A stretch of DNA of 63,018 nt from a virus: positions 1 through 63,018 of IMG/VR virus record IMGVR_UViG_3300048838_000780; one strand, given 5' to 3'. The first letter of the stretch is position 1. Every line of letters starts with the position of its first letter. The position numbers were made by a program, and so were the translations under genes. Of the stretch, positions 3,333-63,018 are shown one piece after another. The notes beneath the pieces are model-generated. The model was not told where the DNA came from. It did no database searches and worked only from the letters and a program-made list of their open reading frames with translations.

Positions 3333-3343
3333 ACAAAAAAATT

Positions 3344-3898: not shown

Positions 3899-3920
3899 CT
3901 TGTTGAGGGACAATTCCAAA

Positions 3921-3978
3921 AAAGCCCTACCCCGTCCAACGGAGTAGGGGGGGGGGTAAAAAAACCCCCCTTTTTTTT
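3921..3978 (+). terminator. Double hairpin terminator; second stem resembles the A iteron
   Basis: CCCTAC at 3925-3930 can pair with GTAGGG just downstream. A second hairpin of G residues (to about 3956) and CCCCCC (3965-3970) around TAAAAAAA is followed by eight T. The second hairpin sequence, GGGGTAAAAAAACCCCCC, resembles the 24-bp iterons at 7276-7347, so it could also be a binding site for the replication initiator. Confidence 0.7.
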
Positions 3979-4006
3979 GCTTTGTCTGATATAGTTGTTA
4001 TATTTG
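3976..4006 (+). promoter_or_regulatory. Bacteroidota-type promoter for the replication block
   Basis: TTTG at 3976-3979, 19 bases, then TATATTTG at 3999-4006. This matches the Bacteroides sigma-ABfr consensus (-33 TTTG, -7 TAnnTTTG) in both boxes and in spacing. The same arrangement recurs at 41743-41773. It drives the genes from 4068 onward and overlaps the T-tract of the preceding terminator. Confidence 0.75.
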
Positions 4007-4067
4007 TATCGTTGGCGGATCCCCCAAGGCAGGGGGCGCCTATTTTGTCACTAAACGACTTCGCAAT

Positions 4068-5387
4068 ATGAAACCAAGAATTTTAAAGCGACTTCCCAAG
4101 GAGGTTACAAGCGTACTTCGCAATCCCGGTCTTTTCCGTCCGGTAAACGTCGTCGGGGAAGATGCGGAATTAGTGGTCTTGAGATACCACGAAACCAGGA
4201 AGCAACGTATTTGGTGGAACGTCCAAACGGGACAACCCATTAACACGGACCAAATATTGCCCCTTCCTTATTCTCCGATTGGCGACGGGACTTATTGGTC
4301 CCTTTGGGTACCCGCCGGGGTCGATATTTATTCGCCAACCCCGAAGACCTTTGGTCCTGTTTCCATCCTGGAAGGGGAAGAAGGCGAAGCGGAAGACGCC
4401 AAACGATACGAAGCAATTTCCGGCCTTCTAAGCAACGACGACCAGGGGGAAGCACAAACCCCCAACGACGCGACGATCGTACAACCTACCCCCGAATCCG
4501 ACGACGACGAAGGCGAATTTTGGGAACAAGTAACCCCGATATACAACGGCTTTGCACCGGCGGAACTTCTTTACCGGTCCGATAAATTCAAGGATCGTTA
4601 TTACTTCCGGCGCCCGGAAGGATCCCCCCCCGTTGGTTACCTTTCAATGACGTCCTTTGTCAAGAAGGCGCTTCCTACTTCCCCTTATTTGCTCAAGTGG
4701 TACCAAACCCACGGCGCCCAAGCGGACGAAATGAGGGACGAACGGTCGGAATACGGGACGATTTTACATATCGTTTGCGTCCGGACCGTCATTAACGGGG
4801 GCGGATCCTTCCGGGAAATACGGGAAACATTCCGGGAAGCTGCAAAAGCGACGGAAGGCGCCAACGTCGAACAATGGGAAGAAGACGGCGTCCGGGACGT
4901 TTTAGCGTTCCTTACCTTCGTAGTCGAAACGGAGGTTGAAATATTGGCGGCGGAATACCCGGTCTATTCCGACAAATACGGTCTTGCGGGTTGTTTGGAC
5001 TTCGTCGTCCGGATCAAATTTGGACGGGTGAAGGTAAACGCAATCGTTGACCTGAAAAGCGGCCGGAAAGGGTTTTACGAATCGCACGAAGCACAATTGC
5101 ACGGATACAAGACCGTTTGGAACGAAGATCCGTACCGGCGGGAAGTATTCCCCGTTACCCATGTGTTTAATTGGCGTCCTTCCGCTTGGCGGGATATTCC
5201 AAAATATGAGTTGAAGAACCAAACGGAAAGCATTTTCGCGGAAACGATCGAACATCGTATGGAATTGGCAAGGTTGGAAGGTTGGGTCGATCCCCCGAAA
5301 TTCCGGCAAGTTATCGACGGCGAATTTACCTTGGAGAACTTCGATTGGAAAAACCATATTACTAACCTTCCAATTTTCGGGGAATGA
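4068..5387 (+). CDS. RecB/Cas4-like PD-(D/E)XK exonuclease
   Basis: The 439-residue product has an N-terminal region of about 190 residues of unknown fold with an acidic linker. A RecB-type nuclease domain follows. Motifs in order are YGTILH (the His that helps bind metal), a Glu-rich helix, G-C-L-D-F-V-V in the GxxD strand, IVDLKSG (the catalytic D-x-K) and EAQLHGYKTVW (the conserved Q-x-x-x-Y helix). Such proteins process DNA ends during phage recombination and replication. The next genes encode a Gp3-like protein, which supports a recombination module. The start lies behind the leader CACTAAACGACTTCGCAAT. Confidence 0.85.
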   Translation: MKPRILKRLPKEVTSVLRNPGLFRPVNVVGEDAELVVLRYHETRKQRIWWNVQTGQPINTDQILPLPYSPIGDGTYWSLWVPAGVDIYSPTPKTFGPVSILEGEEGEAEDAKRYEAISGLLSNDDQGEAQTPNDATIVQPTPESDDDEGEFWEQVTPIYNGFAPAELLYRSDKFKDRYYFRRPEGSPPVGYLSMTSFVKKALPTSPYLLKWYQTHGAQADEMRDERSEYGTILHIVCVRTVINGGGSFREIRETFREAAKATEGANVEQWEEDGVRDVLAFLTFVVETEVEILAAEYPVYSDKYGLAGCLDFVVRIKFGRVKVNAIVDLKSGRKGFYESHEAQLHGYKTVWNEDPYRREVFPVTHVFNWRPSAWRDIPKYELKNQTESIFAETIEHRMELARLEGWVDPPKFRQVIDGEFTLENFDWKNHITNLPIFGE

Positions 5388-30180: not shown

Positions 30181-30735
30181 ATGAAACGGCCTTTTTTCAT
30201 TCTGGCATTGTTCGGCGCTCTACTGGCAACCCTTTTTGCCTTCCGGACGACCACCAACAACGACGCGACAACCTCCGAAGAATACGGCATCGTCTACGGC
30301 GAAAGCGGCGCCTTTGCGCCTGTATCCCTGGAAGACCTCAATTCGGCGCTGACGGCTTCGACCAATCCCGTCTACCAAACCGGGGAAACGATCGACACGA
30401 TTGCAAACGCGGCCAACGATACCCTTACTTTCGCGCCCAATCTCATTTCCAAGTGGATCTATAACCATACGGTCGACGTTACGTCCCTATCCGGTACGGT
30501 AAACATTATCGCCATTTTGCAGGAAAACAACGAACGGACCGGCGGTACATGGTACGAAGTGGAACGGGACACCCTGGCAGCAGCCGGACAAATCCGATTG
30601 CATGGGGCGTACAACGCTTCGAAAAATTCCCAAGTTACCGGTTTCGTTAAGGGGCTTCGACAACGCCTTGTCTTGGACGGATCCGGGACGCAATCGTCCC
30701 GGTACATTCACAACGGGACCTATAAAAAAGAATAA
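30181..30735 (+). CDS. Secreted/anchored structural-like protein, 184 residues
   Basis: It starts with a signal-like segment (FFILALFGALLATLFAF). The mature part is beta-rich and Thr/Asn-rich (VTSLSGTVNIIAILQENNE). No family is recognised. It lies between the capsid terminator and a second hairpin, so it has its own transcript boundary. A similar architecture, an N-terminal hydrophobic segment plus a beta domain, is found in genome B at 52446. Confidence 0.6.
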   Translation: MKRPFFILALFGALLATLFAFRTTTNNDATTSEEYGIVYGESGAFAPVSLEDLNSALTASTNPVYQTGETIDTIANAANDTLTFAPNLISKWIYNHTVDVTSLSGTVNIIAILQENNERTGGTWYEVERDTLAAAGQIRLHGAYNASKNSQVTGFVKGLRQRLVLDGSGTQSSRYIHNGTYKKE

Positions 30736-32081: not shown

Positions 32082-32666
32082 ATGGCACTAATTAACTTCC
32101 TCACTTGCCCGGAAGATTGCGACACCGACGTATTGTTGCCCGCAATTTCGCAAGACCAGGATTGTTCGACTTGGGTCCCGAAAGATTCGCAAGTGTGCGA
32201 CCTGTTTATCGTCCCGACGGGGGCGCCGGATCCTTTTTCTTGGACGGTACCGGCAACCCCGGCGGATGCAACGACGATCGACAACACGGAAGCACTCAAC
32301 GCGGCGCCAAAACGTCTTGTTGGGGAAGGCGGAATAGCGGTCCCGGAAAAGCGGATAATCGAATATCCCAAGAAGAAGTCCAGAATTGCCGACCGTGACT
32401 ACACGCTGCAAATGCGCTTCCGTAACCTAACCGACGAAATGTACGCCTTCCTTCGCCAATTTCAATGCGGTTGGACCAACTTTACGTTTTACTACGCAAC
32501 GGTTGGGGGGCGCCTTTTCGGGAAGCAAAACGCGGGGATCCCGGTACAACGGGTCGACGTCGACTTCCCCTTGGGTGAAGGACGCGACGACAAAGAAGAA
32601 GCAATCTTAACGATCGTTTGGAATGCGGACGGTGACCCCGACCGTTGGCCAAACCCGTTCGCCTAA
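32082..32666 (+). CDS. Tail tube-like protein, paralogue 1
   Basis: The 194-residue product is clearly paralogous to the next gene. Both open with a MA-x-x-x-FLxCPxDCDxDxLLPxIxQDQDC motif, share MYAFLRxFQCGWTNFTF and a VGGRLFG strand, and end with a VDVDFPL strand. Size, beta content and position suggest major tail (tube) proteins. The duplication would give two tube subunits or a tube and a distal-ring protein. Confidence 0.6.
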   Translation: MALINFLTCPEDCDTDVLLPAISQDQDCSTWVPKDSQVCDLFIVPTGAPDPFSWTVPATPADATTIDNTEALNAAPKRLVGEGGIAVPEKRIIEYPKKKSRIADRDYTLQMRFRNLTDEMYAFLRQFQCGWTNFTFYYATVGGRLFGKQNAGIPVQRVDVDFPLGEGRDDKEEAILTIVWNADGDPDRWPNPFA

Positions 32667-32684
32667 AAGTAAGATCCTTGGGGT

Positions 32685-33350
32685 ATGGCAATAAATACCT
32701 TCCTTTCTTGTCCGGACGATTGCGACGACGACTTGTTGTTGCCTGGAATTCCACAAGACCAGGATTGTACGAATTGGTACCCCAAGGATTCCCAAGTAGG
32801 CGACTTGTTTTTATTCCCCTCTACGGCGCCCAAGCCTTCCGATTGGACGGATCCTAATACTTGGTCCGGGACGATAAACAACGTGGATACCTCCAACGCG
32901 GCGGGAAAGTGGATCGTTGGCGAAGGCGGGGTCGATGCGGTCCAAATTACCCTCCTTTCCCTTCCCAAGAAGAAAGAACGGGTAACGGGTCGAACGTTCG
33001 TCCTTTCCTTCGAGATCGACCATTTAAGCGGGTCGATGTACGCTTTTCTTCGTGCTTTTCAATGCGGTTGGACCAACTTTACGTTTTTTTACCGGACCGT
33101 CGGGGGGCGCCTTTTCGGGGCGGACGGGGGGATAATTCCAATATCCGTCGACGTCGACTTCCCATTGGACGAAGACCGGGAAGAATTCGAAACGGCGGTC
33201 GTCGGAATAACCTTTGAAGCAGACGCAACCCCGGACCGGGTAGACGGATCCGGCTTAGACGATGTTTTGGCCACGCTCAACCCGTGGATAACACCCGACG
33301 GCGACGAATGGGTAACCCCGGACGGCGACGCCTGGGTATGGTCCCCCTAA
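32685..33350 (+). CDS. Tail tube-like protein, paralogue 2
   Basis: A 221-residue paralogue of the upstream gene with the same CPxDCD start, FQCGWTNFTFFY core and VDVDFPLDE strand. It carries an extra C-terminal tail of about 25 residues containing a tandem TPDGDEWVTPDGDAW repeat. Such an extension often marks the surface-exposed copy of a tail subunit. Confidence 0.6.
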   Translation: MAINTFLSCPDDCDDDLLLPGIPQDQDCTNWYPKDSQVGDLFLFPSTAPKPSDWTDPNTWSGTINNVDTSNAAGKWIVGEGGVDAVQITLLSLPKKKERVTGRTFVLSFEIDHLSGSMYAFLRAFQCGWTNFTFFYRTVGGRLFGADGGIIPISVDVDFPLDEDREEFETAVVGITFEADATPDRVDGSGLDDVLATLNPWITPDGDEWVTPDGDAWVWSP

Positions 33351-33360
33351 ACAAAATTCA

Positions 33361-36300
33361 ATGAAGAATATTTTTCTATTTGGCTTCCTCCTTCTTGCAA
33401 CCATTTCTTTTGCCCAAGTGCGACCGGATAACTTCCCTTTGCAAACGGCGCCGGATTCGTCGAACTTCGAAGTATATTCCCAAAAGAACGGAATAACAAG
33501 GCGGGCAAACCTTTGGGCGCTCAAGAAGTATTTTGCCCCCTATATTAAGGCAACCCCAATTGCATACGTCCCGGCATCAACCGGTAATACCCTGGATCTT
33601 TCGACTTTCGCACTTACCGGCGGCGATTCGCTGTACTACATCGACGGCGCCGGACGGGCGGCGTTAATTTACGATCCAAATACCTTGCAATCGTTGACCC
33701 TTTCAAACGATACCCTTTACCTATCCGGCGGCGGTGGGGTCTACTTGGGCGGCGGCGGCGCCGGTATTACCGACGGGGACAAAGGCGACATAACGGTATC
33801 GGGATCCGGCACGGTATGGGATATAGACGCGGGGACCGTTGGATCCACGGAGGTAACGGATAACAGTTTGGCGGCCGGGGATCTTTTGGTCGACGTCATA
33901 TCGTCCGTGGACGGGGTAGCGAATGACGGGGGGAACATTGACCTTGTAGCGGGCGCAAATGTGACAATAACCCCGAACGACGGCGCCAATACCATTACCA
34001 TTGCGGCGACGGACACGGATACCCAATTGTCCGAAGAACAAGTCGAAGACTTTGTCGGGGGAATGCTTACGGGTAACACGGAAACAGGGATAACGGTTAC
34101 TTATGAGGATACCGACGGAACAATCGACTTCGTGGCGACGGATCCTTCCTTGAGCAACGAAGGGTCCCTAACCGTCGGGGCGGGGACGTCGACGACGTCG
34201 ACCATTTCTTCCAATACTTCCGGATCTACGGACGTAACTTTGGAAGCGGGGGCAAATATTCTTATTTCGGAAACAGGCAATACCATTACGATTGCGGCGT
34301 CTTCGGGAACTGCAACCGTCGGGGACGGCGACTACGGGGATATTGTGGTATCGGGAACGGGTACGGTATGGGATATAGACGCGGGGACCGTCGGATCCAC
34401 GGAGGTAACGGATAACAGCTTGGCGGCCGGGGATCTTTTGGTCGACGTCGTATCGTCCGTGGACGGGGTAGCAAACGACGGGGGGAACATCGACCTTGTC
34501 GCCGGATCCAATATCACAATAACCCCGGACGACGGCGCCAATACCATTACCATTGCATCGACGGACACGGATACCCAATTGTCCGAAGAACAAGTCGAAG
34601 ACTTCGTCGGGGGGATGCTTACGGGTAACACGGAAACAGGGATAACGGTTACTTATGAGGATACCGACGGAACAATCGACTTCGTGGCGACGGATCCTTC
34701 CTTGAGCAACGAAGGATCCCTAACCGTTGGGGCGGGGACGTCGACGACGTCGACCATTTCTTCGAATACTTCCGGATCCACGGCGGTAACCCTGGAAGCG
34801 GGGACGAATATTACCCTTTCAGAAACGGGCAATACCATTACGATTGCGGCGGCAATTGGGGCGGCCGGGTCCCCTGTTTACGGGGAAGCGTACAACGCAA
34901 CAAGCGACGCCTTGGCAATAACGGCCGGGGTCCCGGTAATTTCGGACGGTATGGTCGCCGGATCGACGAACGGTTTTTCGTATTCGGCCGGACGTCTTAC
35001 ATATTCGGGGGCGTCCGCAATGTTTTTTGTCACCTATTCGGCGGAAATTCATTCGACGGCGACGGGATCCCTTACAAAAGTTTGGATCTACAAAAACGGA
35101 TCTTCCGTTGCGGACACATACCGGGAAGAATACGCGGAAGCTGCAAGCGAGAAAGAAAACATAACGACCGGCGGCCTAATCTCTTTGGATAGTTTGGACT
35201 ACCTGGAAGTTTTTTTCGATGCTTCGGAGAATGCAACGATAACGATTGAAAGCGCCAATATTTCGACAATCCGGGTTGGTAATTCTTCCGGCGGCGACGG
35301 CGTATCCGACGGCGATAAAGGCGACATAACGGTATCGGGATCCGGCACGGTATGGGATATAGACGCGGGGACCGTCGGATCCACGGAGGTAACGGATAAC
35401 AGCTTGGCGGCCGGGGATCTTTTGGTCGACGTCGTATCGTCCTTGGACGGGGTAACCAATGACGGGGGCAATATTGACCTTGTAGCGGGCGCAAATGTGA
35501 CGATAACCCCGAATGACGGCGCCAATACCATTACCATTGCGGCGACGGACACGGATACCCAATTGTCCGAAGAACAAGTCGAAGACTTCGTCGGGGGGAT
35601 GCTTACGGGTAACACGGAAACAGGGATAACGGTTACTTATGAGGATACCGACGGAACAATCGACTTCGTGGCGACGGATCCTTCCTTGAGCAACGAAGGA
35701 TCCCTAACCGTTACGGCGGGGTCCGGTACGACGTCCGTTATTTCCTCCAATACGTCCGGATCCACGGACGTAACATTGTCGGCAAGTACCGGTCTTTCCA
35801 TATCAGAAACAGGCAATACCATTACCCTAACCAATACCGGGGACACGAACGCGGGGGACGACTTGACGACGTCGACAAGTTTTTCCGGCGATGTTTCCGG
35901 ATTATACAGCAACTTGCAACTTGGGGCAAACGTCGTCGGTACGGCGGAAGTAGACGGCACCTTAACGGCGGCGGATCTTGCGGTAAACGTCGTTTCTTCC
36001 GTCGAAAACGTCACCAACGACGGGGGGAACATCGACCTTGCGGCAAGCGGCATTGTAAGCATAACAGGCGACGACGGCGCTAATACTATTACCATTGGCG
36101 TTGCCAAGGTCAAACAAATAAAAGGCGCAACAATCGAAAGTCCTGGAAGCAGCGAAAACATTTCCCTTTTTTACACGGACCATGCGATAACCATTACCAG
36201 GGTATCCGACGTCGTCCGGGGGACAACCCCTTCCGTAACGTATAACATTCGACACGCAACGACCAGGGATAGCGGGTCGCCAAATGATGTTTTTGGATCA

Positions 36301-36450
36301 AATAGGACGGTTACTTCTACTTCCGGCGCAACTACGACGACGTTTAGCGACGCGACGATACCGGCTAACTCTTGGGTCTGGCTTATCACATCTGCAACAT
36401 CCGGAACAATTACGGATATAAATATTACCCTTCAATATGAGGCGGATTAA
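33361..36450 (+). CDS. Repeat-rich secreted-type fibre protein, 1029 residues
   Basis: It begins with a signal peptide ending in SFAQ (about 18 residues). Three copies of a repeat of about 180 residues follow (about 135-315, 320-500 and 650-835). Each contains VGSTEVTDNSLAAGDL, then GANTITIA, then EDTDGTIDFVATDPSLSNEG, and is rich in Asp, Thr and Gly. A non-repeated beta domain (about 500-640) lies between copies 2 and 3. Long Asp/Thr repeats are typical of fibre shafts in marine and freshwater Bacteroidota phages. The last 120 residues may be the receptor-binding tip. Confidence 0.75.
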   Translation: MKNIFLFGFLLLATISFAQVRPDNFPLQTAPDSSNFEVYSQKNGITRRANLWALKKYFAPYIKATPIAYVPASTGNTLDLSTFALTGGDSLYYIDGAGRAALIYDPNTLQSLTLSNDTLYLSGGGGVYLGGGGAGITDGDKGDITVSGSGTVWDIDAGTVGSTEVTDNSLAAGDLLVDVISSVDGVANDGGNIDLVAGANVTITPNDGANTITIAATDTDTQLSEEQVEDFVGGMLTGNTETGITVTYEDTDGTIDFVATDPSLSNEGSLTVGAGTSTTSTISSNTSGSTDVTLEAGANILISETGNTITIAASSGTATVGDGDYGDIVVSGTGTVWDIDAGTVGSTEVTDNSLAAGDLLVDVVSSVDGVANDGGNIDLVAGSNITITPDDGANTITIASTDTDTQLSEEQVEDFVGGMLTGNTETGITVTYEDTDGTIDFVATDPSLSNEGSLTVGAGTSTTSTISSNTSGSTAVTLEAGTNITLSETGNTITIAAAIGAAGSPVYGEAYNATSDALAITAGVPVISDGMVAGSTNGFSYSAGRLTYSGASAMFFVTYSAEIHSTATGSLTKVWIYKNGSSVADTYREEYAEAASEKENITTGGLISLDSLDYLEVFFDASENATITIESANISTIRVGNSSGGDGVSDGDKGDITVSGSGTVWDIDAGTVGSTEVTDNSLAAGDLLVDVVSSLDGVTNDGGNIDLVAGANVTITPNDGANTITIAATDTDTQLSEEQVEDFVGGMLTGNTETGITVTYEDTDGTIDFVATDPSLSNEGSLTVTAGSGTTSVISSNTSGSTDVTLSASTGLSISETGNTITLTNTGDTNAGDDLTTSTSFSGDVSGLYSNLQLGANVVGTAEVDGTLTAADLAVNVVSSVENVTNDGGNIDLAASGIVSITGDDGANTITIGVAKVKQIKGATIESPGSSENISLFYTDHAITITRVSDVVRGTTPSVTYNIRHATTRDSGSPNDVFGSNRTVTSTSGATTTTFSDATIPANSWVWLITSATSGTITDINITLQYEAD

Positions 36451-37165
36451 AGGATATTTAATTGTCGCACTTTTGCCCCTTTTTGGGGTTGGATACGCGC
36501 AAACGGTCGAAGAATTCGTCGGGGACGGGACTTGGTCTAAACCAAGTGGAGTTACCCAAGTAATTGTCGAATGTTGGGGCGGGGGAGGCGCCGGGGGCGG
36601 CGCAACCACGAACGGCACGGGCGGGGGCGGCGGCGCCGGGGGGCAATATGCAAAAAAGACGGTTACTTATAGTTCCGGGGCGGCCTCTATTTCGTACACG
36701 GTAGGCGGCGGCGCCGTGGGTAATACGGGAAATGGAGGGACCGGCGGCGAAACAAGTTGGAATAGCGGCGAAGTCGTAGCAAAGGGCGGCGCCGGGGGCG
36801 TGGCAAACAACGGAAGCGGGGGGACCGGATCAACAAGCGGGGGCGTTGGCGACATTGTTTACGCGGGCGGGTCCGGGGCGGCCGGGGCTACAAGTTCCGG
36901 CGGCGGCGGCGGCGGCGCCGGGTCTACGGGAACCGGGAAGAATGCTTCGGGAACAACGGCGGGCGGCGCAACAAGTGAAAACGGCGGCGCCGGGGGTAAT
37001 GGCAGATCAACAAGCGGGGCCGGTTTAGCCGGAAGTACCTTTGGCGGCGGCGGCGGCGGCGGGAAAAAGACGACGACGACCAATAGGGCGGGCGGCGCCG
37101 GGGCGCAAGGAATGATAAGAATTACCTATACTGTTAACCCAAGAAGGGTTTTTATAATTAACTGA
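36437..37165 (+). CDS. Glycine-rich adhesin with signal peptide
   Basis: A 242-residue protein with a signal peptide ending in GYAQ and a VEEFVGDGTWSKPSGVTQVI strand module. A Gly-rich domain of about 170 residues follows (many GGGGGGAG runs) and closes with an IRITYTV strand. This is the Gly-rich phage tail-tip/adhesin type, analogous in composition to T-even gp38, where poly-Gly loops set receptor choice. It overlaps the upstream fibre gene by 14 bases and lies between the two repeat fibres. Confidence 0.7.
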   Translation: MRRIKGYLIVALLPLFGVGYAQTVEEFVGDGTWSKPSGVTQVIVECWGGGGAGGGATTNGTGGGGGAGGQYAKKTVTYSSGAASISYTVGGGAVGNTGNGGTGGETSWNSGEVVAKGGAGGVANNGSGGTGSTSGGVGDIVYAGGSGAAGATSSGGGGGGAGSTGTGKNASGTTAGGATSENGGAGGNGRSTSGAGLAGSTFGGGGGGGKKTTTTNRAGGAGAQGMIRITYTVNPRRVFIIN

Positions 37166-37167
37166 CT

Positions 37168-40026
37168 ATGAAAGTATTGTATTTTTTCCCCTTTTTGCTT
37201 CTTCCCTTCTTTTTGAAGGGGCAAACACCAACCGGAAGTGTACAAATACCGTCGGGTACAACGGCGCAACGTCCAACTTCCCCGGGGGTCGGTGAATTCC
37301 GTATTAATACGGATTCGTTAAAAGTCGAATTTTGGTCCGGGTCCGCTTGGGTCCTTTTGGGGGTAGGCGGCGGCGGCGGCGTATCCGACGGGGACAAAGG
37401 GGACATTACCGTATCGTCTTCCGGGACGGCATGGAATATCGACGCGGGGGTCGTCGGATCCACGGAGGTAACGGATAACAGTTTGGCGGCCGGGGATCTT
37501 TTGGTCGACGTCATATCGTCCTTGGACGGGGTAGCAAACGACGGGGGCAATATTGACCTTGTAGCGGGCGCAAATGTGACAATAACCCCGAACGACGGCG
37601 CCAATACCATTACCATTGCGGCGACGGACACGGATACCCAATTGTCCGAAGAACAAGTCGAAGACTTTGTCGGGGGGATGCTTACGGGTAACACGGAAAC
37701 AGGGATAACGGTTACTTATGAGGATACCGACGGAACAATCGACTTCGTGGCGACGGATCCTTCCTTGAGCAATGAAGGGTCCCTAACCGTCGGGGCGGGG
37801 ACGTCGACGACGTCGACCATTTCTTCGAATACGTCCGGATCCACGGCGGTAACCCTGGAAGCGGGGACGAATATTACCCTTTCAGAAACGGGGAATACCA
37901 TTACCATTGCATCGACGGCGGCCGGAATATCCGACGGGGACAAAGGGGACATTACCGTATCGTCTTCCGGGACGGCATGGAATATCGACGCGGGGGTCGT
38001 CGGATCCACGGAGGTAACGGATAACAGTTTGGCGGCCGGGGATCTTTTGGTCGACGTCATATCGTCCTTGGACGGGGTAGCAAACGACGGGGGCAATATT
38101 GACCTTGTAGCGGGCGCAAATGTGACAATAACCCCGAACGACGGCGCCAATACCATTACCATTGCGGCGACGGACACGGATACCCAATTGTCCGAAGAAC
38201 AAGTCGAAGACTTTGTCGGGGGAATGCTTACGGGTAACACGGAAACAGGGATAACGGTTACTTATGAGGATACCGACGGAACAATCGACTTCGTGGCGAC
38301 GGATCCTTCCTTGAGCAATGAAGGGTCCCTAACCGTCGGGGCGGGGACGTCGACGACGTCGACCATTTCTTCGAATACGTCCGGATCCACGGCGGTAACC
38401 CTGGAAGCGGGGACGAATATTACCCTTTCAGAAACGGGGAATACCATTACCATTGCATCGACGGCGGCCGGAATATCCGACGGGGACAAAGGGGACATTA
38501 CCGTATCGTCTTCCGGGACGGCATGGAATATCGACGCGGGGGTCGTCGGATCCACGGAGGTAACGGATAACAGTTTGGCGGCCGGGGATCTTGCCGTCGA
38601 CGTCGTATCGTCCTTGGACGGGGTAGCAAACGACGGGGGCAATATTGACCTTGTAGCGGGCGCAAATGTGACAATAACCCCGAATGACGGCGCCAATACC
38701 ATTACCATTGCGGCGACGGACACGGATACCCAATTGTCCGAAGAACAAGTCGAAGACTTCGTCGGGGGGATGCTTACGGGTAACACGGAAACAGGGATAA
38801 CGGTTACTTATGAGGATACCGACGGAACAATCGACTTCGTGGCGACGGATCCTTCCTTGAGCAATGAAGGGTCCCTAACCGTCGGGGCGGGGACGTCGAC
38901 GACGTCGACCATTTCTTCGAATACGTCCGGATCCACGGCGGTAACCCTGGAAGCGGGGACGAATATTACCCTTTCAGAAACGGGCAATACCATTACCATT
39001 GCGGCGGCCGGGGGCGGCGGCGGGTCCCCTTCCGTTATCACTCCTTCGACCATTACGGCACAACAAGACAATTATTCCCCGACGGGTTGGGCGGATGCAA
39101 CTTTTGTCCGTCTTTCCGGCGATATAGATATGGATGCAATTACCGGATTTTCGGCGGAAACTTCCGGGGAAGTAAAGACCCTTGGAAACGTTGGGGACTA
39201 TACGATCTTCATTTCCCCGGAAAATACTTCTTCGACGGCTGCAAATCGCATTTCCTATCCGGAAGATATTTTGTTGGAACCAGGGGAAAGTATGCAAATA
39301 ATCTACGACGGGACTTTAACCCGTTGGGTCCCCTTGTCTTGTCCGTCAAAAGGATTTTCCAATATTCGCCGGTCTTGGTTCGCCAATAAAAGTTCCGGCC
39401 GGGCGGCGGAAGGGATAGCGGACGATATAAATATCCTTTTTGCCTATTCCGGGGGTAGCATTTCTTCGCAAAGTTCGACGGCGACGACCCCCCTTTCCGC
39501 ATGGGCATTGGCAACCGGTACGACGACGACCGGGGATTGTTACGGGTATATGGCTAAAGGGTCTGAAAACATGGGGTACATTGGATCCGCTTATATGTAC
39601 ACGGAATGTCTTTTCCAGCTTGAAGACTTAAGCGACGGGACCAACGGGTACGACCTTTATTTCCGCCTTACGACTTCCCCTTCGTCTACTTCCGTAACGG
39701 CAAACAATAGTCTTGGTATTCGTTATTCCGACGACGTCAATTCTGGAAAACTGGAAGCCTTTACGCGCAATTCGTCCGGGACAGAAACGACCCTGGATCT
39801 TGGGGTAACCGTTGCGGCGGATACTCCTTATCGCCTTGGCGTGTCTATAAACAAAGCGGGGACCTTGGCGACGTTCTTTGTAAACGATAATGTAGTAGGT
39901 CAGATAACGACCAATCTTCCAAGTGGAACGGATCTTGGAACGGCCTTCTTCATTAAGAAGACAGCCGGAACGACTTCCCGGACGGCGTATTTATTCCGAA
40001 TCTTAGGCGTGGCAGTGTTACCATAA
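37168..40026 (+). CDS. Repeat-rich secreted-type fibre protein, 952 residues
   Basis: A signal-like N-terminus (about 21 residues, LFFLKGQ) is followed by a linker and three 182-residue repeats nearly identical to each other and to those in the 1029-residue fibre. The C-terminal 340 residues are unique. They include a WVPLSCPSKGFSN segment and a beta domain of about 200 residues with a jelly-roll or lectin-like pattern (SLGIRYSDDVNSGKLEAF). This region is the likely receptor-binding tip. The next gene starts at the stop. Confidence 0.75.
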   Translation: MKVLYFFPFLLLPFFLKGQTPTGSVQIPSGTTAQRPTSPGVGEFRINTDSLKVEFWSGSAWVLLGVGGGGGVSDGDKGDITVSSSGTAWNIDAGVVGSTEVTDNSLAAGDLLVDVISSLDGVANDGGNIDLVAGANVTITPNDGANTITIAATDTDTQLSEEQVEDFVGGMLTGNTETGITVTYEDTDGTIDFVATDPSLSNEGSLTVGAGTSTTSTISSNTSGSTAVTLEAGTNITLSETGNTITIASTAAGISDGDKGDITVSSSGTAWNIDAGVVGSTEVTDNSLAAGDLLVDVISSLDGVANDGGNIDLVAGANVTITPNDGANTITIAATDTDTQLSEEQVEDFVGGMLTGNTETGITVTYEDTDGTIDFVATDPSLSNEGSLTVGAGTSTTSTISSNTSGSTAVTLEAGTNITLSETGNTITIASTAAGISDGDKGDITVSSSGTAWNIDAGVVGSTEVTDNSLAAGDLAVDVVSSLDGVANDGGNIDLVAGANVTITPNDGANTITIAATDTDTQLSEEQVEDFVGGMLTGNTETGITVTYEDTDGTIDFVATDPSLSNEGSLTVGAGTSTTSTISSNTSGSTAVTLEAGTNITLSETGNTITIAAAGGGGGSPSVITPSTITAQQDNYSPTGWADATFVRLSGDIDMDAITGFSAETSGEVKTLGNVGDYTIFISPENTSSTAANRISYPEDILLEPGESMQIIYDGTLTRWVPLSCPSKGFSNIRRSWFANKSSGRAAEGIADDINILFAYSGGSISSQSSTATTPLSAWALATGTTTTGDCYGYMAKGSENMGYIGSAYMYTECLFQLEDLSDGTNGYDLYFRLTTSPSSTSVTANNSLGIRYSDDVNSGKLEAFTRNSSGTETTLDLGVTVAADTPYRLGVSINKAGTLATFFVNDNVVGQITTNLPSGTDLGTAFFIKKTAGTTSRTAYLFRILGVAVLP

Positions 40027-41811: not shown

Positions 41812-42300
41812 ATGAACAGCTTAAATCTTGAGCGCTTCCGGAACATCATTCTTGGGGATCCTTCCCCGTCCGCTTTGGATATTCGTACCAAGATCCAAGA
41901 AGTAGCGCAAATTGCCAACCGGCTAAACGACCTTGCATCGGAGGAAGAAAATTGGCGCAAGGCGTCCGCCTTGGGTACCTTGGCCTTGGACCTCCAAAAA
42001 GCCTTGGAAGTTTTTTACCTGGAATACAACGCGGCCGAACTTTGCCGCAAGACCCGGGACCATTTGGTCGAAGTCGGTTGGGAAGGCTTCGTCCAAATGT
42101 TACCCAAGGAATACCTTTCGATTGTGGATGCAATCGACCTCAAGTTTGGATCGGCCGATAACCCCTTCGAAGAATTCGTCTTCGACTTCGATTGGCATTT
42201 GGTCCCCTTGTCCGGATCGGATCCCCGAAAGTGGATCCCTGAAGATTGGGAAACGCTTTGTCGGCATTTTTCGGCAACCTATACAATGATTTTTCGCTAA
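41812..42300 (+). CDS. Hypothetical protein, 162 residues (first early gene of A)
   Basis: It follows the strong promoter at 41743 and the leader CACTAAACAATCTTGCA. The N-terminal half is helical (IRTKIQEVAQIANRLNDLA); the C-terminal half is acidic, aromatic and beta-like (FVFDFDWHLVPL). No family is recognised. Its last 63 codons lie inside segment S and occur again at 62892-63018, fused to a genome B lipoprotein signal. Confidence 0.65.
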   Translation: MNSLNLERFRNIILGDPSPSALDIRTKIQEVAQIANRLNDLASEEENWRKASALGTLALDLQKALEVFYLEYNAAELCRKTRDHLVEVGWEGFVQMLPKEYLSIVDAIDLKFGSADNPFEEFVFDFDWHLVPLSGSDPRKWIPEDWETLCRHFSATYTMIFR

Positions 42301-42874
42301 CCAGGGGGGGGACCTTCCCCCCTTCTTCATTCTTTCAACCAAAACTATCTTACCAATGAAACGCGCCTATTTTAAAGGACTTTCGGACCGTTTTGTCGTC
42401 CGGCCAACTTATTTCGTTTCGACGTCGGGTCTTAAGCATATTTGGAAAGGTCTTCCAATCGAAGTCTTGTCCTTCGGCGAAACGGGGTACCCAATCTTCG
42501 ACCCGGAAGCGGTCGTCTTGGTCGAAATGCTTTTGGAAACAATCCAACTTTTTACTACCCCCCCACTACACGGACCGAACCAGGGGATAGAAGACCTTCC
42601 ACAAGCAACGGGGGAAAAGTTCATCCAATTAACCCCGAAGGAATACCAGGAACTAACAACGATCCCCGTTACCTACGCTTTCGAAGTGAAGTTGTGGGAA
42701 TTGCACGAAATTGTTTACGACCTCTAAAAAGTATGGAAATGGAAAACATTTGGAAAGACGCGACTACTTATTCCCGTAACGACAAAGACCGGATCCCTTC
42801 CGTCTTCGAATACCAAAACGGGGGGCTTTGTATTACAGTGGTCCGGGGTCACCGTTTCAACCCGGAAAATTGGG
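42109..42874. other. Segment S: A-type sequence shared by the two joined circles
   Basis: The first 127 bases of S are repeated at the end of the window (62892-63018) and its last 127 at the start (1-127). S therefore has two ways in (from A at 42108 and from B at 62891) and two ways out (to A at 128 and to B at 42875). It contains the 3' end of the 162-residue gene, all of the 123-residue gene and the first 47 codons of the next. Codon use is that of A. Circle A is 42,747 bp; B plus S is about 20,783 bp. Confidence 0.9.
42356..42727 (+). CDS. Hypothetical protein, 123 residues, inside segment S
   Basis: The ATG follows CAACCAAAACTATCTTACCA. The product has no membrane segment; the centre is Pro-rich and the last third helical (AFEVKLWELHEIVYDL). 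No family is recognised. It is the only complete gene in the shared segment, so if S is really present in both genomes this would be the one intact protein that B gained from A. Confidence 0.6.
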   Translation: MKRAYFKGLSDRFVVRPTYFVSTSGLKHIWKGLPIEVLSFGETGYPIFDPEAVVLVEMLLETIQLFTTPPLHGPNQGIEDLPQATGEKFIQLTPKEYQELTTIPVTYAFEVKLWELHEIVYDL

Positions 42875-43326
42875 GCGTGTGCGTAAACGGTGAATGCGAA
42901 TGCCCGCCACAATGGACCGGGCCCAGCTGCTCCCAGGAGGTGACGCCGGTCAAAATGCGGGTAACGTACATTGCTCTCAACTCCTTCCCTCCTACCGACG
43001 GCAACGGCGCCGGCTGGGATCTGTTCGACGGGCCAGACGTGTACCTCTCTATCTGGAAAGATGGAGTGCAGCTGTACAAATCCAATTGGTACGAAGATCT
43101 TACCATTGGCGCATTTTGGGAAACCAACTTTGAATTTTCCGACCCAACGGCAACCTATAATCTCCGCGTCTACGATTACGACGACGGCATTACCGCGGAT
43201 GACCTCATGGGATGGATTGATTTCACGCCGTACCGCCCAGGGCAGAAGTTTCCCACCTCCTACCCTGTCAGCTGCTCGGGATGTATCGTTTCTTTCGAAT
43301 TTACTGGCGTGTCCTACTTCCATTAA
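42733..43326 (+). CDS. Chimeric ORF: A gene 5' part fused in frame to B EGF lipoprotein 3' part
   Basis: Codons up to Trp 47 belong to the A gene that in circle A continues at 1-279. From Gly 48 (42874) the sequence is B type and begins with GVCVNGECECPPQWTGPSCS, the second half of an EGF-like domain. A domain of about 120 residues follows that resembles C2-type calcium-binding domains (YLSIWKDGVQLYKSNW, then LRVYDYDDG and DLMGWIDFTP). The 5' half of the B gene is at 62793-62891. The fusion is in frame but is most likely a junction product, not a functional gene. It converges on the integrase gene with a 4-base overlap. Confidence 0.7.
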   Translation: MEMENIWKDATTYSRNDKDRIPSVFEYQNGGLCITVVRGHRFNPENWGVCVNGECECPPQWTGPSCSQEVTPVKMRVTYIALNSFPPTDGNGAGWDLFDGPDVYLSIWKDGVQLYKSNWYEDLTIGAFWETNFEFSDPTATYNLRVYDYDDGITADDLMGWIDFTPYRPGQKFPTSYPVSCSGCIVSFEFTGVSYFH

Positions 43327-48596: not shown

Positions 48597-48792
48597 GGAA
48601 AGAAGAGGTGAAAAAATTTTCACAATCGACCCTTTGGGCCAAAATTGCAAAACTCGATAACAGTGTGTTGAAGTAAAACGAGGCGATAAAAGTTGGCACT
48701 AATGGCACAAAAGGGGGTGTTTATAGGTATAAGAAAGTATATAAAGTATTGATTATTATATTATTAGTATTAGATAGTTAGTATAACAAATA

Positions 48793-49048
48793 GTGCCAAA
48801 TCGTGCCAAAAAAGGGGCAGTTCGTGCCAAAAATGTTGCAGTTCGTGCCAAAAAAGTGGCAGTTCGTGCCAAACCGATATATGAAGGTTTCTTCATTAGT
48901 GCCAAATTTGGGCAGTTCGTGCCAAAAAGTTTTTTTTCAATGTTTACGCAGGTTTCAGCCGAAATCGTGCCAACTTGTGCCAAATTAAAAAAACGCTGGA
49001 ACACTTATAAACACAGGCCGACCCGCGAGTTAGTGCCAAAGTGCCAAC
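48793..49048 (+). repeat. GTGCCAAA iteron array, candidate origin of B
   Basis: GTGCCAA(A) starts at 48793, 48803, 48824, 48845, 48866, 48899, 48919, 48967, 48977, 49033 and 49041. Four copies from 48803 to 48866 are spaced 21 bp, two helical turns, and three share the longer unit GCAGTTCGTGCCAAA. Inverted copies (TTGGCAC, TGGCACA) lie near 48694-48708. Regular spacing on one DNA face supports cooperative binding by an initiator protein. Confidence 0.75.
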
Positions 49049-50237: not shown

Positions 50238-50314
50238 CACCTTATCCCAAACCTCCTACGCAGTAAGACAAAACCGTTTGGAAGTGTGCAACGCCTTGTT
50301 TTACATTGGTGCCC

Positions 50315-50764
50315 ATGAGGACAAACCAGATTCTCAATTACGCCGGCATCGCCGCACTATTCTATGTCATCGCCACCAATCTGGGGGGCTGGCTGACATC
50401 AAAAATTTCCATTGGCTCCATCAAAATGAAGCTGGGCCAAACATCTCCGACAGGGCAGACCCTTACCCTGTTTATTCCCGTCAAAAACTCCGCTCCGGTA
50501 TCTTACCCGCTCGAATCTTTCCAGGGTATGCTCTTTTGGGGCACTAACCCGCTGGCCCAGGTGATCATTAACCAGGAGGTGACAATTGCGGGCAATGGTA
50601 CTACCGAAATTCCAGTAAATGTATTCATACCGTTTGCCAACCTGGGCACCCAGCTGGTAAACATCATATCGGCCGGCGACTGGCTGGCAGGCGCAAAGAT
50701 CAAAGGCCTGCTCCGCGCCGGTGGCGTTAACGTACCTATTGAGCAAACTATCCAACTGCTGTAA
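50315..50764 (+). CDS. Membrane-anchored beta-domain protein, 149 residues
   Basis: From ATG 50315 there is one N-terminal hydrophobic segment (NYAGIAALFYVIATNLGGWL). A beta-sandwich-like domain follows, resembling LEA_2 proteins (TLTLFIPVKNSAPVSYPLES, then VIINQEVTIAGNGTTEIPV). Candidate minor virion or spike-base protein. The stop overlaps the next ATG. Confidence 0.55.
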   Translation: MRTNQILNYAGIAALFYVIATNLGGWLTSKISIGSIKMKLGQTSPTGQTLTLFIPVKNSAPVSYPLESFQGMLFWGTNPLAQVIINQEVTIAGNGTTEIPVNVFIPFANLGTQLVNIISAGDWLAGAKIKGLLRAGGVNVPIEQTIQLL

Positions 50765-52445: not shown

Positions 52446-52877
52446 ATGAAAAATCCATTCATCTACTCAATTCTGCTGGCCGTGGTGGTGATCATCGCCA
52501 TGGTATTCCTGCCCAGCGCCAACGTGGAAAAAGCCCGCCCGAATCGCTACGAATCGACCAGCATCGATACGCTGGTAGAAAGCGAAAGCGCCACGTTTAC
52601 CATTCCGGATATTATCCGAAACCAGGTAGCCTATTTTTTTCAGGTGACGGTTGCACAGGACAGCTTTGCAACCGACGCCATTGCCATCGTGAAGGAAAGC
52701 GCATGGGATACGGAAAACCGCTGGAGCAACAAAGACACGCTCACTATCAGCGGAGCGGGCACCTTTGGCATAGAGGGGGTAACAAATGCCGCCAGGCTTA
52801 TGATCGAAATTCAGACCGACACCACCAACCAGCAGGGGCGCTATTGGCTAGCTGGAACGCTGGTGGAAACCTTCTGA
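52446..52877 (+). CDS. Membrane-anchored beta-rich protein, 143 residues
   Basis: One N-terminal hydrophobic segment (IYSILLAVVVIIAMVFL) is followed by a beta-rich Thr/Asp domain (DTLTISGAGTFGIEGVTNAA). The layout is like the anchored 149-residue protein at 50315 and the A protein at 30181. Candidate virion surface or spike protein. Confidence 0.5.
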   Translation: MKNPFIYSILLAVVVIIAMVFLPSANVEKARPNRYESTSIDTLVESESATFTIPDIIRNQVAYFFQVTVAQDSFATDAIAIVKESAWDTENRWSNKDTLTISGAGTFGIEGVTNAARLMIEIQTDTTNQQGRYWLAGTLVETF

Positions 52878-56067: not shown

Positions 56068-56397
56068 ATGAGCTTCATTGGATGCAACCCAGCCGGAGGA
56101 TCTGGAAGCGGTGGCGGTGGCGAAACGCCAACAGCCGACACCCTGACCATTACCAGCGGTGAAAATACCACCGATTTCAACCGCGCAGCTGGGGCCCTCA
56201 AATTTAAGATCACCAACGCAGGCCCGGCAGCCGGCGGCACGGCCGACACCGCCACGGTGAACGGCGCCAACCTGTTTCCCGGCGATAGCCTGGAGTTTGA
56301 GGCGAAGCTCGACCCAGTGAACAATGTTTTCAAGACCCTCCCGGCAATGACAATTGTCACCAACGGGGCAACGCTGTTCTGGTATGAAGAAAGGTAA
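56068..56397 (+). CDS. Gly-rich small beta protein, 109 residues
   Basis: It starts with a Gly/Ser-rich stretch (NPAGGSGSGGGGETPTADTL). A Thr-rich beta domain follows, resembling the 106-residue upstream protein (VNGANLFPGDSLEFEAKLDP versus ILDNVFEIPAGASFQFGDNN). The two may be distant paralogues. It overlaps the next gene by 14 bases. Confidence 0.45.
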   Translation: MSFIGCNPAGGSGSGGGGETPTADTLTITSGENTTDFNRAAGALKFKITNAGPAAGGTADTATVNGANLFPGDSLEFEAKLDPVNNVFKTLPAMTIVTNGATLFWYEER

Positions 56398-56953
56398 AGT
56401 GTGGAGTTTTCTCATAGTAATTTCCCTCATCGGACTGAGCCCGGCAATTGGCTGGGCTCAATTCCCTTTCTACGACATCGAGCTGGAGCCGGTATGTGCC
56501 GACAGCGCCGGCGTACAAACCACGCTGTACAGCGCCCAGCTGTACGTTTTGGGCCGGAATGGATTTGATGTTGTGTACCAGTACTATTTCGACCAGGCGG
56601 GCAACAAGGTAACGCCTGGAGGTGGCGTAACGATCTCCCCAGGGGCCTGCTGGGAGCAGGTGACGGAAGACACCGCCCAGGTGCTCACCTTCGAAAGCGC
56701 CTTTTCTGGGGGAGACTACACAATACCAGGCGATACCTACGATTGGGTAAGCATCGTTAACCAGGGGGGCACTACCCACCTGATCACCTTTCCGGCCAGC
56801 GGGGGCACTATGCGCCTGCTGCCCGGAGAGGCCTATTATTTTCGCTCGCACTTCGACGAGTTTTACCGGAAGCGCATGAGAAACCCCACCATTGTGATCA
56901 GCCAGGGGGTGGCAGGATTGAATAACCTAAGAGTATACGCCGAGGCAAAATGA
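56384..56953 (+). CDS. Secreted protein, 189 residues
   Basis: From ATG 56384 a signal peptide ends in GWAQ. The mature part is beta-rich with Cys (DIELEPVCADSAGV) and a VNQGGTTHLITFPASGGT segment. Part of a run of exported proteins in the host-contact end of the cluster. Coupled to the fibre gene. Confidence 0.55.
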   Translation: MKKGKVWSFLIVISLIGLSPAIGWAQFPFYDIELEPVCADSAGVQTTLYSAQLYVLGRNGFDVVYQYYFDQAGNKVTPGGGVTISPGACWEQVTEDTAQVLTFESAFSGGDYTIPGDTYDWVSIVNQGGTTHLITFPASGGTMRLLPGEAYYFRSHFDEFYRKRMRNPTIVISQGVAGLNNLRVYAEAK

Positions 56954-58800
56954 AAAGGGTAGCACTATTCATATTTTTGGTTTTTTGGGGGTTCTTTCAG
57001 GCTGGATACGGGCAAGGAAGCGAGACAAGGTATGACGTGGAGTATGCCCGTATCTGCCTGATTGATAGCATCGCGCCGGATACGCTGGTACAGTTCTGGC
57101 GTTTCACCCAGGCGAACAATCCCGGCGCCCTGGCCCTGGATTATACTTTTGACCTGGCCGGGGGCTACACCGTGGCCGGTACCGTCCTCCCCTGCTGCTC
57201 CTGCCTGACGGCTGCCAGCGATACCGCCGGTTTTTCTCCCTGCCAGCCAACCGGTATAGGTTGGGGCTGGAAAATTGCCATTGCTCTGGTGCTTTTGCTC
57301 GCTGCCAGCTGGCTGATAAGTGTATGGGGCCTGCTCGAATTTGGCAGGCGATACCAGAAGGCCGCGAGAATCGCGTATATCCTACTTATATCCATCCTGT
57401 TTTCGTACAGCTCACTCTCAGCGCAATCAGAAACCACCTACGATGTGGAATATCAGTGCATTTGTCTGGTGGATAGCATCGCGCCGGGAAACGTGGTTCA
57501 ATTCTGGCGTTTCACCCAGGCCAACAATCCCGGCGCCCTGGCCCTGGATTATACTTTTGACCTGGCCGGGGGCTACACCGTGGCCGGTACCGTCATGGGC
57601 TGCAATGATTACTACCTGGGGGATAATGTGAATAGTGGAGGGGGTACCGCTGGCACGTTGCCGATCTGGACGGGGGCTAATACGCTGGGGAATAGCAGCC
57701 TTTCGGAAGCGAGCGGTGTGCTTTCTTCGAGCCTTACCGGGGCGCTGAAGCTGCCAGCGGGGACGGATGCACAGGACCCGGTTTGGAGTACTGGGATGTT
57801 GAGGTACAATACTACTACTGCCGGATTACAAGGCTATAATGGTGCAGAAAGATATTTACCATGGTCAGACAATGACAATTTTACTACTGCTTATATTCCG
57901 TACAGTAATGGATCATCACTTACAACTAGTGCCGATTTGGGCTTTTACATTGTTACTGGCAGTAATAGATTAGGTGTTCTTAATGCAAAATTAGGTACTA
58001 CATATGCCGGAACAATTAGAGGCCGATTAGATGTATCTGGGCAGGCTGGCGATCATACATCATATTTTGAATGCACAGGAAGCACTTTTTCTTCATCTAT
58101 TTTTAGTGTTAACACTAACGTAAATGGATGGGGTCCATTTTTCGTACTTCCAGAAAACAGCAATAAACCTAATCTTTTTTTAGGAGAGTCTAACACCATT
58201 CAAAGAACAAGCCAAAAAGAAACAATCAAAATATCAGGAAATAACAGCACAAATAATAATGGTAATTTTTTTGTGGGTGTTAATGGTGGCAAATCAATTT
58301 CATGGGAATATTCTCGATCTATAGGACCATCAGCCCAGCCATCATATAAATTTGAATCTGCACGTATTGTTCCTATATGCACAGCAAATGTATATGGGGA
58401 TATGGAAACAGGTTTAAGGTTTTATAACACTGTGGCCAACACGCTTACATATACTGCTCAGCTAGATAGTGCGGGGTTGATTCTTCCGTTGTACGCACCC
58501 GGAACGCTTACCGGAACGCCCGCCACTACTGCCGCTTTCAATTCTTCGGGGCGTCTTATTCAGGTACCAGAAAAATGGGCCGCCATCTCCACCTCCACCG
58601 ACGCCAGCGGAGACATCGTAGTAGCCCACGGCATGGGCGCCACGCCGACCAGTGTACAGGTAACAGTAACCGGCACCACGCCGTATGTGGTGACAGTCCA
58701 CAGTATAGACGCCACTAATTTTACAGTAAGGTTTTACGATATGACAGGGGCAGCGGTGGCATCCACCGCGGTAACCGCCACCTGGCACGCAAAAACATAA
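56950..58800 (+). CDS. Composite secreted fibre/receptor-binding protein, 616 residues
   Basis: A first signal peptide ends in GYGQ. Module 1 (about 24-85) and module 2 (about 160-221) are near-identical at their 3' parts (FWRFTQANNPGALALDYTFD). Between them lie a Cys-rich turn, a membrane segment (IAIALVLLLAASWLISVWGL) and what looks like a second, internal signal peptide ending in SLSAQ. A repeat-poor shaft follows, then an AT-rich domain (57840-58450) and a GC-rich C-terminal beta domain. It appears to be a fusion of duplicated genes with a replaced recognition domain. Confidence 0.65.
   Translation: MKRVALFIFLVFWGFFQAGYGQGSETRYDVEYARICLIDSIAPDTLVQFWRFTQANNPGALALDYTFDLAGGYTVAGTVLPCCSCLTAASDTAGFSPCQPTGIGWGWKIAIALVLLLAASWLISVWGLLEFGRRYQKAARIAYILLISILFSYSSLSAQSETTYDVEYQCICLVDSIAPGNVVQFWRFTQANNPGALALDYTFDLAGGYTVAGTVMGCNDYYLGDNVNSGGGTAGTLPIWTGANTLGNSSLSEASGVLSSSLTGALKLPAGTDAQDPVWSTGMLRYNTTTAGLQGYNGAERYLPWSDNDNFTTAYIPYSNGSSLTTSADLGFYIVTGSNRLGVLNAKLGTTYAGTIRGRLDVSGQAGDHTSYFECTGSTFSSSIFSVNTNVNGWGPFFVLPENSNKPNLFLGESNTIQRTSQKETIKISGNNSTNNNGNFFVGVNGGKSISWEYSRSIGPSAQPSYKFESARIVPICTANVYGDMETGLRFYNTVANTLTYTAQLDSAGLILPLYAPGTLTGTPATTAAFNSSGRLIQVPEKWAAISTSTDASGDIVVAHGMGATPTSVQVTVTGTTPYVVTVHSIDATNFTVRFYDMTGAAVASTAVTATWHAKT
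57020..57594 (+). repeat. 408-bp-offset duplication inside the B fibre gene
   Basis: 57020-57186 is repeated at 57428-57594. The last 80 bases of the unit are almost identical (GGCGTTTCACCCAGGC through GGCCGGTACCGTC). The offset of 408 bases keeps the frame. The second copy is preceded by an internal signal-like segment, so the duplication probably copied the start of a secreted protein gene. Confidence 0.8.
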
Positions 58801-58806
58801 CCACGC

Positions 58807-59457
58807 ATGAAACAGATATTCCTCTTTTTACTCCTCCTCCCCTTCCTCGCTCCCGCGCAAAGCGATCTGGAAGTTACCGACGTGCTCCAGGAGATCGTCG
58901 AAGATGCTGGCGTGTACTACGTCGTCACCACCACTAAGTTTTCAGCAGGTCCGCCGCAGGTAATACCGCAGAAGATCGGAGGACGCCAGGAAATGCTTAC
59001 CTATGCCCAGACAGCCGCCGTAAACCAGCAGCAGGCCATTGCCGCCGCCAGGCGGGTAGTGGTAGAAGACGCGCCGATAGCCTTCCGGCAATTCCTTGGC
59101 CTGGACACGCTTATCAGGGAGATTACCGGGGGAGATACTACCATATACGACCTCAACGCCGGTAGCTACTTCGCACAGTACGAAGGGCGCTACCGCGTCA
59201 GATCGGCCAGCGGGGTAACGGACTACACCGCCAAGATTATACGCCTGGCCAATGGCCAGCTACGCCTGGAGCGGGAAAGCGACGGGGTAAGATACAGCCT
59301 GCTGGTGCTCAGCCCGAAAAGTTTCCGGCTGGTGAACATACCGATAGGCAGCGTACCGGCTGCCGTGTACGACATGAGCGAGATCAGCCCAATGCCCGAC
59401 GGCAAGCCCAGGTACCGGGATGAAACGCGCATTTTCACCATTGTGAAGCTGGAGTAA
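58807..59457 (+). CDS. Secreted protein, 216 residues
   Basis: The signal peptide (IFLFLLLLPFLAPAQ) is followed by an alpha/beta protein with NQQQAIAAARRVVVEDAPIA helix and a C-terminal beta part (FRLVNIPIGSVPAAVYDMSE). No family is recognised. Its stop overlaps the next start. Likely works with the fibre protein upstream. Confidence 0.55.
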   Translation: MKQIFLFLLLLPFLAPAQSDLEVTDVLQEIVEDAGVYYVVTTTKFSAGPPQVIPQKIGGRQEMLTYAQTAAVNQQQAIAAARRVVVEDAPIAFRQFLGLDTLIREITGGDTTIYDLNAGSYFAQYEGRYRVRSASGVTDYTAKIIRLANGQLRLERESDGVRYSLLVLSPKSFRLVNIPIGSVPAAVYDMSEISPMPDGKPRYRDETRIFTIVKLE

Positions 59458-62792: not shown

Positions 62793-63018
62793 ATGAAAAA
62801 AATCCTTTTCCTCGCCGGCCTACTGGCGCTGGCATCCTGCCAAAAAGATCCCCAGGAAAAACTCTGTGAGGGCATTATTTGCAACAATGGTGAATACCTT
62901 TCGATTGTGGATGCAATCGACCTCAAGTTTGGATCGGCCGATAACCCCTTCGAAGAATTCGTCTTCGACTTCGATTGGCATTTGGTCCCCTTGTCCGGAT
63001 CGGATCCCCGAAAGTGGA
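62793..63018 (+). CDS. 5' half of the B EGF-like lipoprotein, fused in frame to segment S
   Basis: The first 33 codons encode a lipoprotein signal (FLAGLLALASC, Cys 16) and CEGIICNNG, the first half of an EGF-like domain. At 62892 the sequence switches to a copy of 42109 onward, in the native A frame (EYLSIVDAIDLKF). Joining codon 33 (GGT) to GGC at 42874 rebuilds a six-Cys EGF repeat, CNNGGVCVNGECEC, and a lipoprotein of 183 residues with a C2-like domain. The gene was therefore intact in native B. Confidence 0.8.
   Translation, partial: MKKILFLAGLLALASCQKDPQEKLCEGIICNNGEYLSIVDAIDLKFGSADNPFEEFVFDFDWHLVPLSGSDPRKW
62892..63018. repeat. 127-bp end repeat, copy of 42109-42235
   Basis: These bases are identical to 42109-42235; just upstream, base 62891 (T) differs from base 42108 (G). 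Together with the start repeat (1-127 = 42748-42874) this shows that the window begins and ends on k-mer-length overlaps at the two borders of segment S. Confidence 0.95.

Follow-up and report, generated by a model that had tools for sequence, protein, structure and literature searches.

There is good reason to think that the gene at positions 56950-58800 of the window (the whole 63,018-base stretch analyzed here, which is the IMG/VR virus record IMGVR_UViG_3300048838_000780) codes for a fibre or spike that is secreted and probably binds a receptor, in a virus-like replicon of about 20 kb, and that this gene is a mosaic made by recombination. That its AT-rich central block was imported from a foreign AT-rich genome is well supported. 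A function in receptor binding is suggested by the position of the gene, by its neighbors, and by the link of its C-terminal domain to tailspikes. The features on which these conclusions depend are as follows.

56390-56953, plus strand: upstream secreted gene with one more module, the third and a diverged one (26% to copy 1)
56950-58800, plus strand: fibre gene, a single open frame of 616 aa
56950-57015, plus strand: predicted N-terminal signal peptide, residues 1-22, MKRVALFIFLVFWGFFQAGYG/Q, suggested by hydropathy and an (A/G)/Q cleavage layout
57016-57195, plus strand: module copy 1 (SETRYDVEY...AGTVLPC)
57115-57186, plus strand: 72-nt stretch identical to its partner at 57523-57594, probably a gene-conversion tract, or else a site of unequal recombination
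57253-57339, plus strand: membrane helix, residues 102-130, peak hydropathy 2.81
57358-57423, plus strand: second signal-peptide-like segment, residues 137-158, hydropathy 2.01, ending in ...KAARIAYILLISILFSYSSLSA/Q
57427-57603, plus strand: module copy 2 (SETTYDVEY...AGTVMGC)
57706-57840, plus strand: fibre base motif LPAGTDAQDPVWSTGMLRYNTTTAGLQGYN, which several families of phage structural proteins share in their N-terminal parts
57808-58470, plus strand: AT-rich central block, residues 287-507, bounded by a change-point fit on third codon positions
58546-58797, plus strand: C-terminal domain, also present in a crAss-like phage (87%) and in a podovirus-like tailspike (57%)
58807-59457, plus strand: secreted partner gene, 216 aa, distantly homologous over its full length to the gene located after the C-terminal domain in contig L002

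The fibre gene belongs to the smaller of two joined replicons

The record consists of two replicons joined together, because bases 1-131 recur at 42748-42878 and bases 42109-42235 recur at its very end (62892-63018). Replicon A (about 42.7 kb) has, as read from its open reading frames (ORFs), the gene content of a tailed phage. Replicon B, of about 20 kb (42.9-62.9 kb), carries the fibre gene together with genes for an integrase (PF00589), a DUF3987 helicase-type protein, a transglutaminase-like protein, an amidase endolysin, and many small membrane proteins. A general reading of its ORFs revealed no terminase, portal, or tape-measure genes, and neither the suspected capsid gene nor the helicase has relatives in the viral or genome contigs. 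Single-sequence AlphaFold models of the suspected capsid protein and of the fibre reached a pLDDT of 32-33 (32 for the fibre), a level at which neither fold can be relied on, and a search of solved structures returned chance matches only. The join itself is a replicon A segment of about 770 nt (42109-42878) that breaks a replicon B lipoprotein gene, which reads CEGIICNNG / VCVNGECECPPQWTGPSC at the break, with a few bases of microhomology at the join; a chimera from assembly or library preparation would account for it, as would a genuine insertion. Three further observations were made in replicon B. Four tandem 21-nt units of the AAAAAgtGGCAGTTCGTGCCA type lie between genes at 48788-48871 and are possibly origin iterons. 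The gene at 50306-50764 encodes a protein with an N-terminal membrane anchor and an LEA_2-type domain (Pfam E value of 2.8e-5, just under the cut-off). Finally, the membrane-anchored protein encoded at 52446-52877 resembles the product of 30181-30735 in replicon A, with a phmmer E value of 1.4e-5 obtained in a small database.

Two signal-peptide-plus-module units share one open frame in the assembly

From its N terminus, the fibre protein comprises a signal peptide, a module of about 58 aa, the membrane helix, the signal-like segment, a second module, the base motif, the AT-rich middle, and the C-terminal domain. Signal peptides were called from hydropathy and cleavage-site layout only, and the (A/G)/Q layout seen at the N terminus of the fibre is common to other secreted genes in the window. 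The first-pass annotation had described a fusion in which two copies of a secreted module, 408 bp apart, are joined through a membrane segment and an internal signal peptide. This description holds on both counts: what is fused is two signal-peptide-plus-module units, with the helix and the internal signal-like segment forming the two hydropathy peaks listed above, and the 174-nt copies at 57022-57195 and 57430-57603 are 84% identical with starts exactly 408 nt apart. Since the module sits at the same place behind each signal segment (...YGQ-GSETRYDVEY and ...SAQ-SETTYDVEY), the duplicated unit is the signal peptide plus the module, rather than the module alone.

It could be argued that there are two separate genes in reality, and that the fusion is either a sequencing error or bypassed by an internal start. 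The second unit does possess its own signal-like segment, in front of which lies a basic stretch (GRRYQKAAR), and the nearest in-frame starts, GTG at 57289 and TTG at 57295, are both found within the membrane helix. However, the stretch from this helix to the second signal-like segment contains no ATG, GTG, or TTG in frame. Nor could one indel both terminate the first gene and provide the second with a start, as the available stops (57314 and 57317) are not in the same alternative frame as the available ATG (57324). For these two reasons we regard the two halves as a true fusion in the assembly, and two separate genes as an unlikely arrangement.

The differences between the two module copies are informative about their history. 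Of the 28 mismatches, 17 fall at third codon positions, which indicates that selection has acted on the protein encoded by each copy. These mismatches cluster in the 5' part of the module, while the 3' half is identical and has a sharp edge: none of 20,000 shuffles produced an uninterrupted match of 72 nt, or one of 93 nt containing a single mismatch. This pattern would be explained most simply by an older duplication, with gene conversion or unequal recombination as a second, recent event. Outside replicon B, no relatives of the module were found in the viral contigs, either by alignment or by exact DNA search. The base motif that follows the second copy gave weak PHROG matches (best E value of 1.7e-4, another of 2.3e-4), and matched cyanophage structural proteins with E values of 0.1-0.9. 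When the full fibre was used as query, the viral contigs returned one match, L001, which we rejected as spurious because it falls within an unrelated protein of another phage.

The central block has the codon usage of an AT-rich genome

The most AT-rich 600 nt in the whole 63 kb are found at 57834-58433, within the fibre gene, and have a GC content of 35.5%. The first-pass annotation had drawn attention to an AT-rich region at 57840-58450 with an abrupt return to normal composition. This region is real, its coordinates are about right when compared with the fitted bounds of 57808-58470, and composition does revert abruptly. The gain in log-likelihood at the fitted change points is 53, against a maximum of 10.7 in 200 shuffles. 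GC content at third codon positions (GC3) is 0.21 within the block and 0.64 in the remainder of the gene; in 20 other replicon B genes it ranges from 0.56 to 0.82. Because the shift is one of synonymous third positions, it is not accounted for by amino-acid composition. The sliding GC and codon analysis that had been proposed thus bears out the compositional claim, and usage in the block fits an AT-rich genome. Its mean log-likelihood per codon is -1.63 under replicon B usage versus -1.02 under that of a crAss-like phage (contig L002, described below), and none of the 221-codon windows in the other genes of replicon B favors the crAss-like usage. These scores indicate an AT-rich genome as the source of the block, though not necessarily L002. 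The proposal that a foreign domain was imported between conserved ends is well supported as far as the foreign block is concerned, by both GC3 and codon usage, and for the right end only as far as conservation is concerned. On the left, the boundary of the block is located within a motif, GMLRYNTTTAGLQGYNG, which is found near the N terminus in several phage structural families and is a plausible place for recombination.

The search for a donor that had been called for produced none: the block has no relative in the viral contigs or the phages, and the full fibre has no match in the plasmids. This empty search would suit a different explanation, namely that no transfer took place and the block is an old domain in which selection, acting for instance on expression or mRNA structure, has maintained the odd composition. 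However, several features are at odds with this: composition changes abruptly at both ends, the change resides in third positions, the codon usage is that of another genome type, no other replicon B gene comes near such a composition, and the crAss-like phage has the reverse patch at this gene, evidence that transfer does take place there. We consider retention of an old domain improbable.

Even less probable, to the point of being hardly credible, is production of the variable middle by a diversity-generating retroelement (DGR) or an invertible cassette. Fibre genes are usual targets of such systems (PMC6199706), but neither alters base composition across a block of 660 nt. No match to a reverse transcriptase (PF00078) was found in the record, and no inverted repeats were found at the fibre gene, the one inverted pair in the window being located elsewhere.

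The C-terminal domain and the downstream gene have relatives in other phages

The C-terminal 84 residues of the fibre, used as query, matched two contigs, L002 and L003; in the genome contigs there was no match by alignment. L002 (also G001), or IMGVR_UViG_3300048839_001287, is 58 kb long with about 34% GC and is most likely a crAss-like phage, as judged from its crAss-type virion proteins. The latter match phrog_15100 with E values of 1e-92 and 7e-46; there is also a hit to the crAss muzzle C-terminal domain (PF25729) with an E value of 1e-3, which is below the cut-off of that family and weak taken alone. The C-terminal domains of L002 and replicon B are 87% identical at the amino-acid level and 78% at the nucleotide level, with 37 of the 56 differences at third positions and a longest identical run of 23 nt. 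In L002 this piece has 53% GC in a contig of 34% GC, and its log-likelihood is -1.27 under replicon B usage versus -1.47 under the usage of its own contig. Only the end of the fibre gene is present in the L002 contig, whose first fibre residue is equivalent to 518 of replicon B, which is after the block; its other end was read for the missing front of the fibre, which is absent there.

The match in L003, a podovirus-like contig, provides the best support for calling the replicon B gene a fibre or spike. At 2718-5087 this contig encodes a tailspike-like protein with a C terminus 57% identical to that of replicon B, and with a front that matches PHROG tail fibre and spike families with E values down to 2e-31. 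In the same contig (2718-5405), the tailspike gene is followed by a second gene with a nearly identical N-terminal domain, the two being tandem spike paralogues.

These relationships contradict one element of the first-pass annotation, in which the middle alone was mobile. The C-terminal end moves too, as it is found, 87% identical in amino acids, in an unrelated crAss-like phage where it forms a foreign GC-rich patch. Because the L002 C-terminal domain is a GC-rich patch and the block in replicon B has AT-rich usage, we conclude that a replicon of about 55% GC and AT-rich phages have exchanged portions of their fibre genes.

The similarity between replicon B and L002 continues beyond the fibre. 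Directly after the fibre gene, L002 encodes a secreted protein of 213 aa, which is 22% identical over its full length to the product of the replicon B partner gene. A pairwise BLAST between the two gives an E value of 0.57, which is not significant by itself. However, when the proteins were aligned minus their signal peptides, the score had a z of 5.6-6.5 over shuffles, with none of 2000 shuffles reaching it, compared to z below 2.5 for five other replicon B proteins used as controls. A search of the phages with the partner gene returned no match.

The 23-nt identity run also bears on the possibility that the fibre gene is an assembly chimera, in which the assembler crossed into the fibre gene of an AT-rich phage and back through sequence held in common. 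The record already joins two replicons via the segment of about 770 nt, so mis-joins are possible, and the left bound of the block is a motif common to many phage fibres. Against this, two in-frame switches 660 nt apart would be needed, and the 127-nt overlap at the end of the record suggests a long assembly word, whereas the known identity run in the C-terminal domain is only 23 nt. We judge such a chimera very improbable.

Discussion

How such a gene might be assembled and how its product might work can be outlined as follows. The block would have been imported by a recombination event beginning in the fibre base motif and ending ahead of the C-terminal domain. It may represent the variable, ligand-contacting part of the protein, with the C-terminal domain as a common tip or folding domain. 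Signal peptidase could process the double-signal-peptide precursor to yield a membrane-anchored module and a released fibre, so that the mature, exported fibre would consist of module 2, the base motif, the block, and the C-terminal domain. Since L002 has a near-identical tip followed by a distant homologue of the partner, the fibre tip and its partner may together constitute a recognition module of unrelated viruses whose parts are exchanged. We find it doubtful that all of this applies in its most developed form, in which a Sec-exported polyprotein with two signal peptides is cut into an anchored module and a fibre bearing that module too, in equal amounts that meet outside the cytoplasm, and in which crAss-like phages exchange a tip-plus-partner cassette with this Bacteroidota virus, itself apparently tailless.

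That viruses swap fibre domains is well known. The less usual parts of what we report are the fusion with two signal peptides and the exchange with a replicon that has no recognizable tail genes. The patches left by exchange at this gene are of opposite composition in the two genomes: the GC-rich replicon has acquired AT-rich sequence, and in the AT-rich crAss-like phage the foreign sequence is GC-rich. The finding points to a recognition module common to more than one virus group.

Comparison with known systems highlights both similarities and differences. The distantly related Alteromonas phages A5, V22, and P24 have in common a host-recognition module made of a tail fibre and a chaperone, in which the C-terminal part of the fibre is the most conserved, with 60% similarity there, and the chaperone is 44-56% similar (PMC10579305). 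Our case is similar in that the C terminus of the fibre and the next gene are common to otherwise unrelated genomes. However, the Alteromonas partners are all tailed phages of one host genus, whereas here one of the partners is without recognizable tail genes; furthermore, unlike the Alteromonas chaperone, the downstream protein has a signal-like N terminus and is 22% identical, and the genome bodies are of opposite base composition. Receptor-binding modules are reported to have been swapped among Kuttervirus tailspikes (PMC8432352), and the exchange of the receptor-binding part of a mosaic gene is a point of resemblance. A point of difference is that the fibre in replicon B has N-terminal and internal signal-like segments and a membrane helix. 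Variation of a phage binding protein is also what the DGRs of Bacteroides phages bring about, but those operate with a reverse transcriptase and a template repeat, which are lacking here, and the phage DGR proteins are without detectable signal peptides or transmembrane regions (PMC6199706), features that we predict in the fibre.

As to the nature of replicon B, it resembles the Flavobacterium phage FLiP and the tailless FLiP group (PMC5894146) in that no terminase or portal was seen and there are many small membrane proteins, which is a resemblance only. Membership of this group (Finnlakeviridae) was considered and rejected: a phmmer comparison of all replicon B ORFs with those of FLiP produced nothing credible, and so no counterpart of its capsid or replication proteins.

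Finally, a few observations concern the fibre-like genes of the other replicon. The putative fibre genes of both replicons start with signal-peptide-like segments, and signal-like starts, most of them with an A/Q or G/Q layout, are found in the putative virion or fibre genes of replicon A at 30181-30735, 33361-36450, 36437-37165, and 37168-40026. In the same replicon, two adjoining genes at 32082-33350 are tandem duplicates, with stretches that are 76-85% identical. Six near-identical repeats of 300 nt (86-99%) extend over 33762-38768, across two long fibre-like genes; their spacing is mostly 546-552 nt, and they point to recent exchange between both genes.
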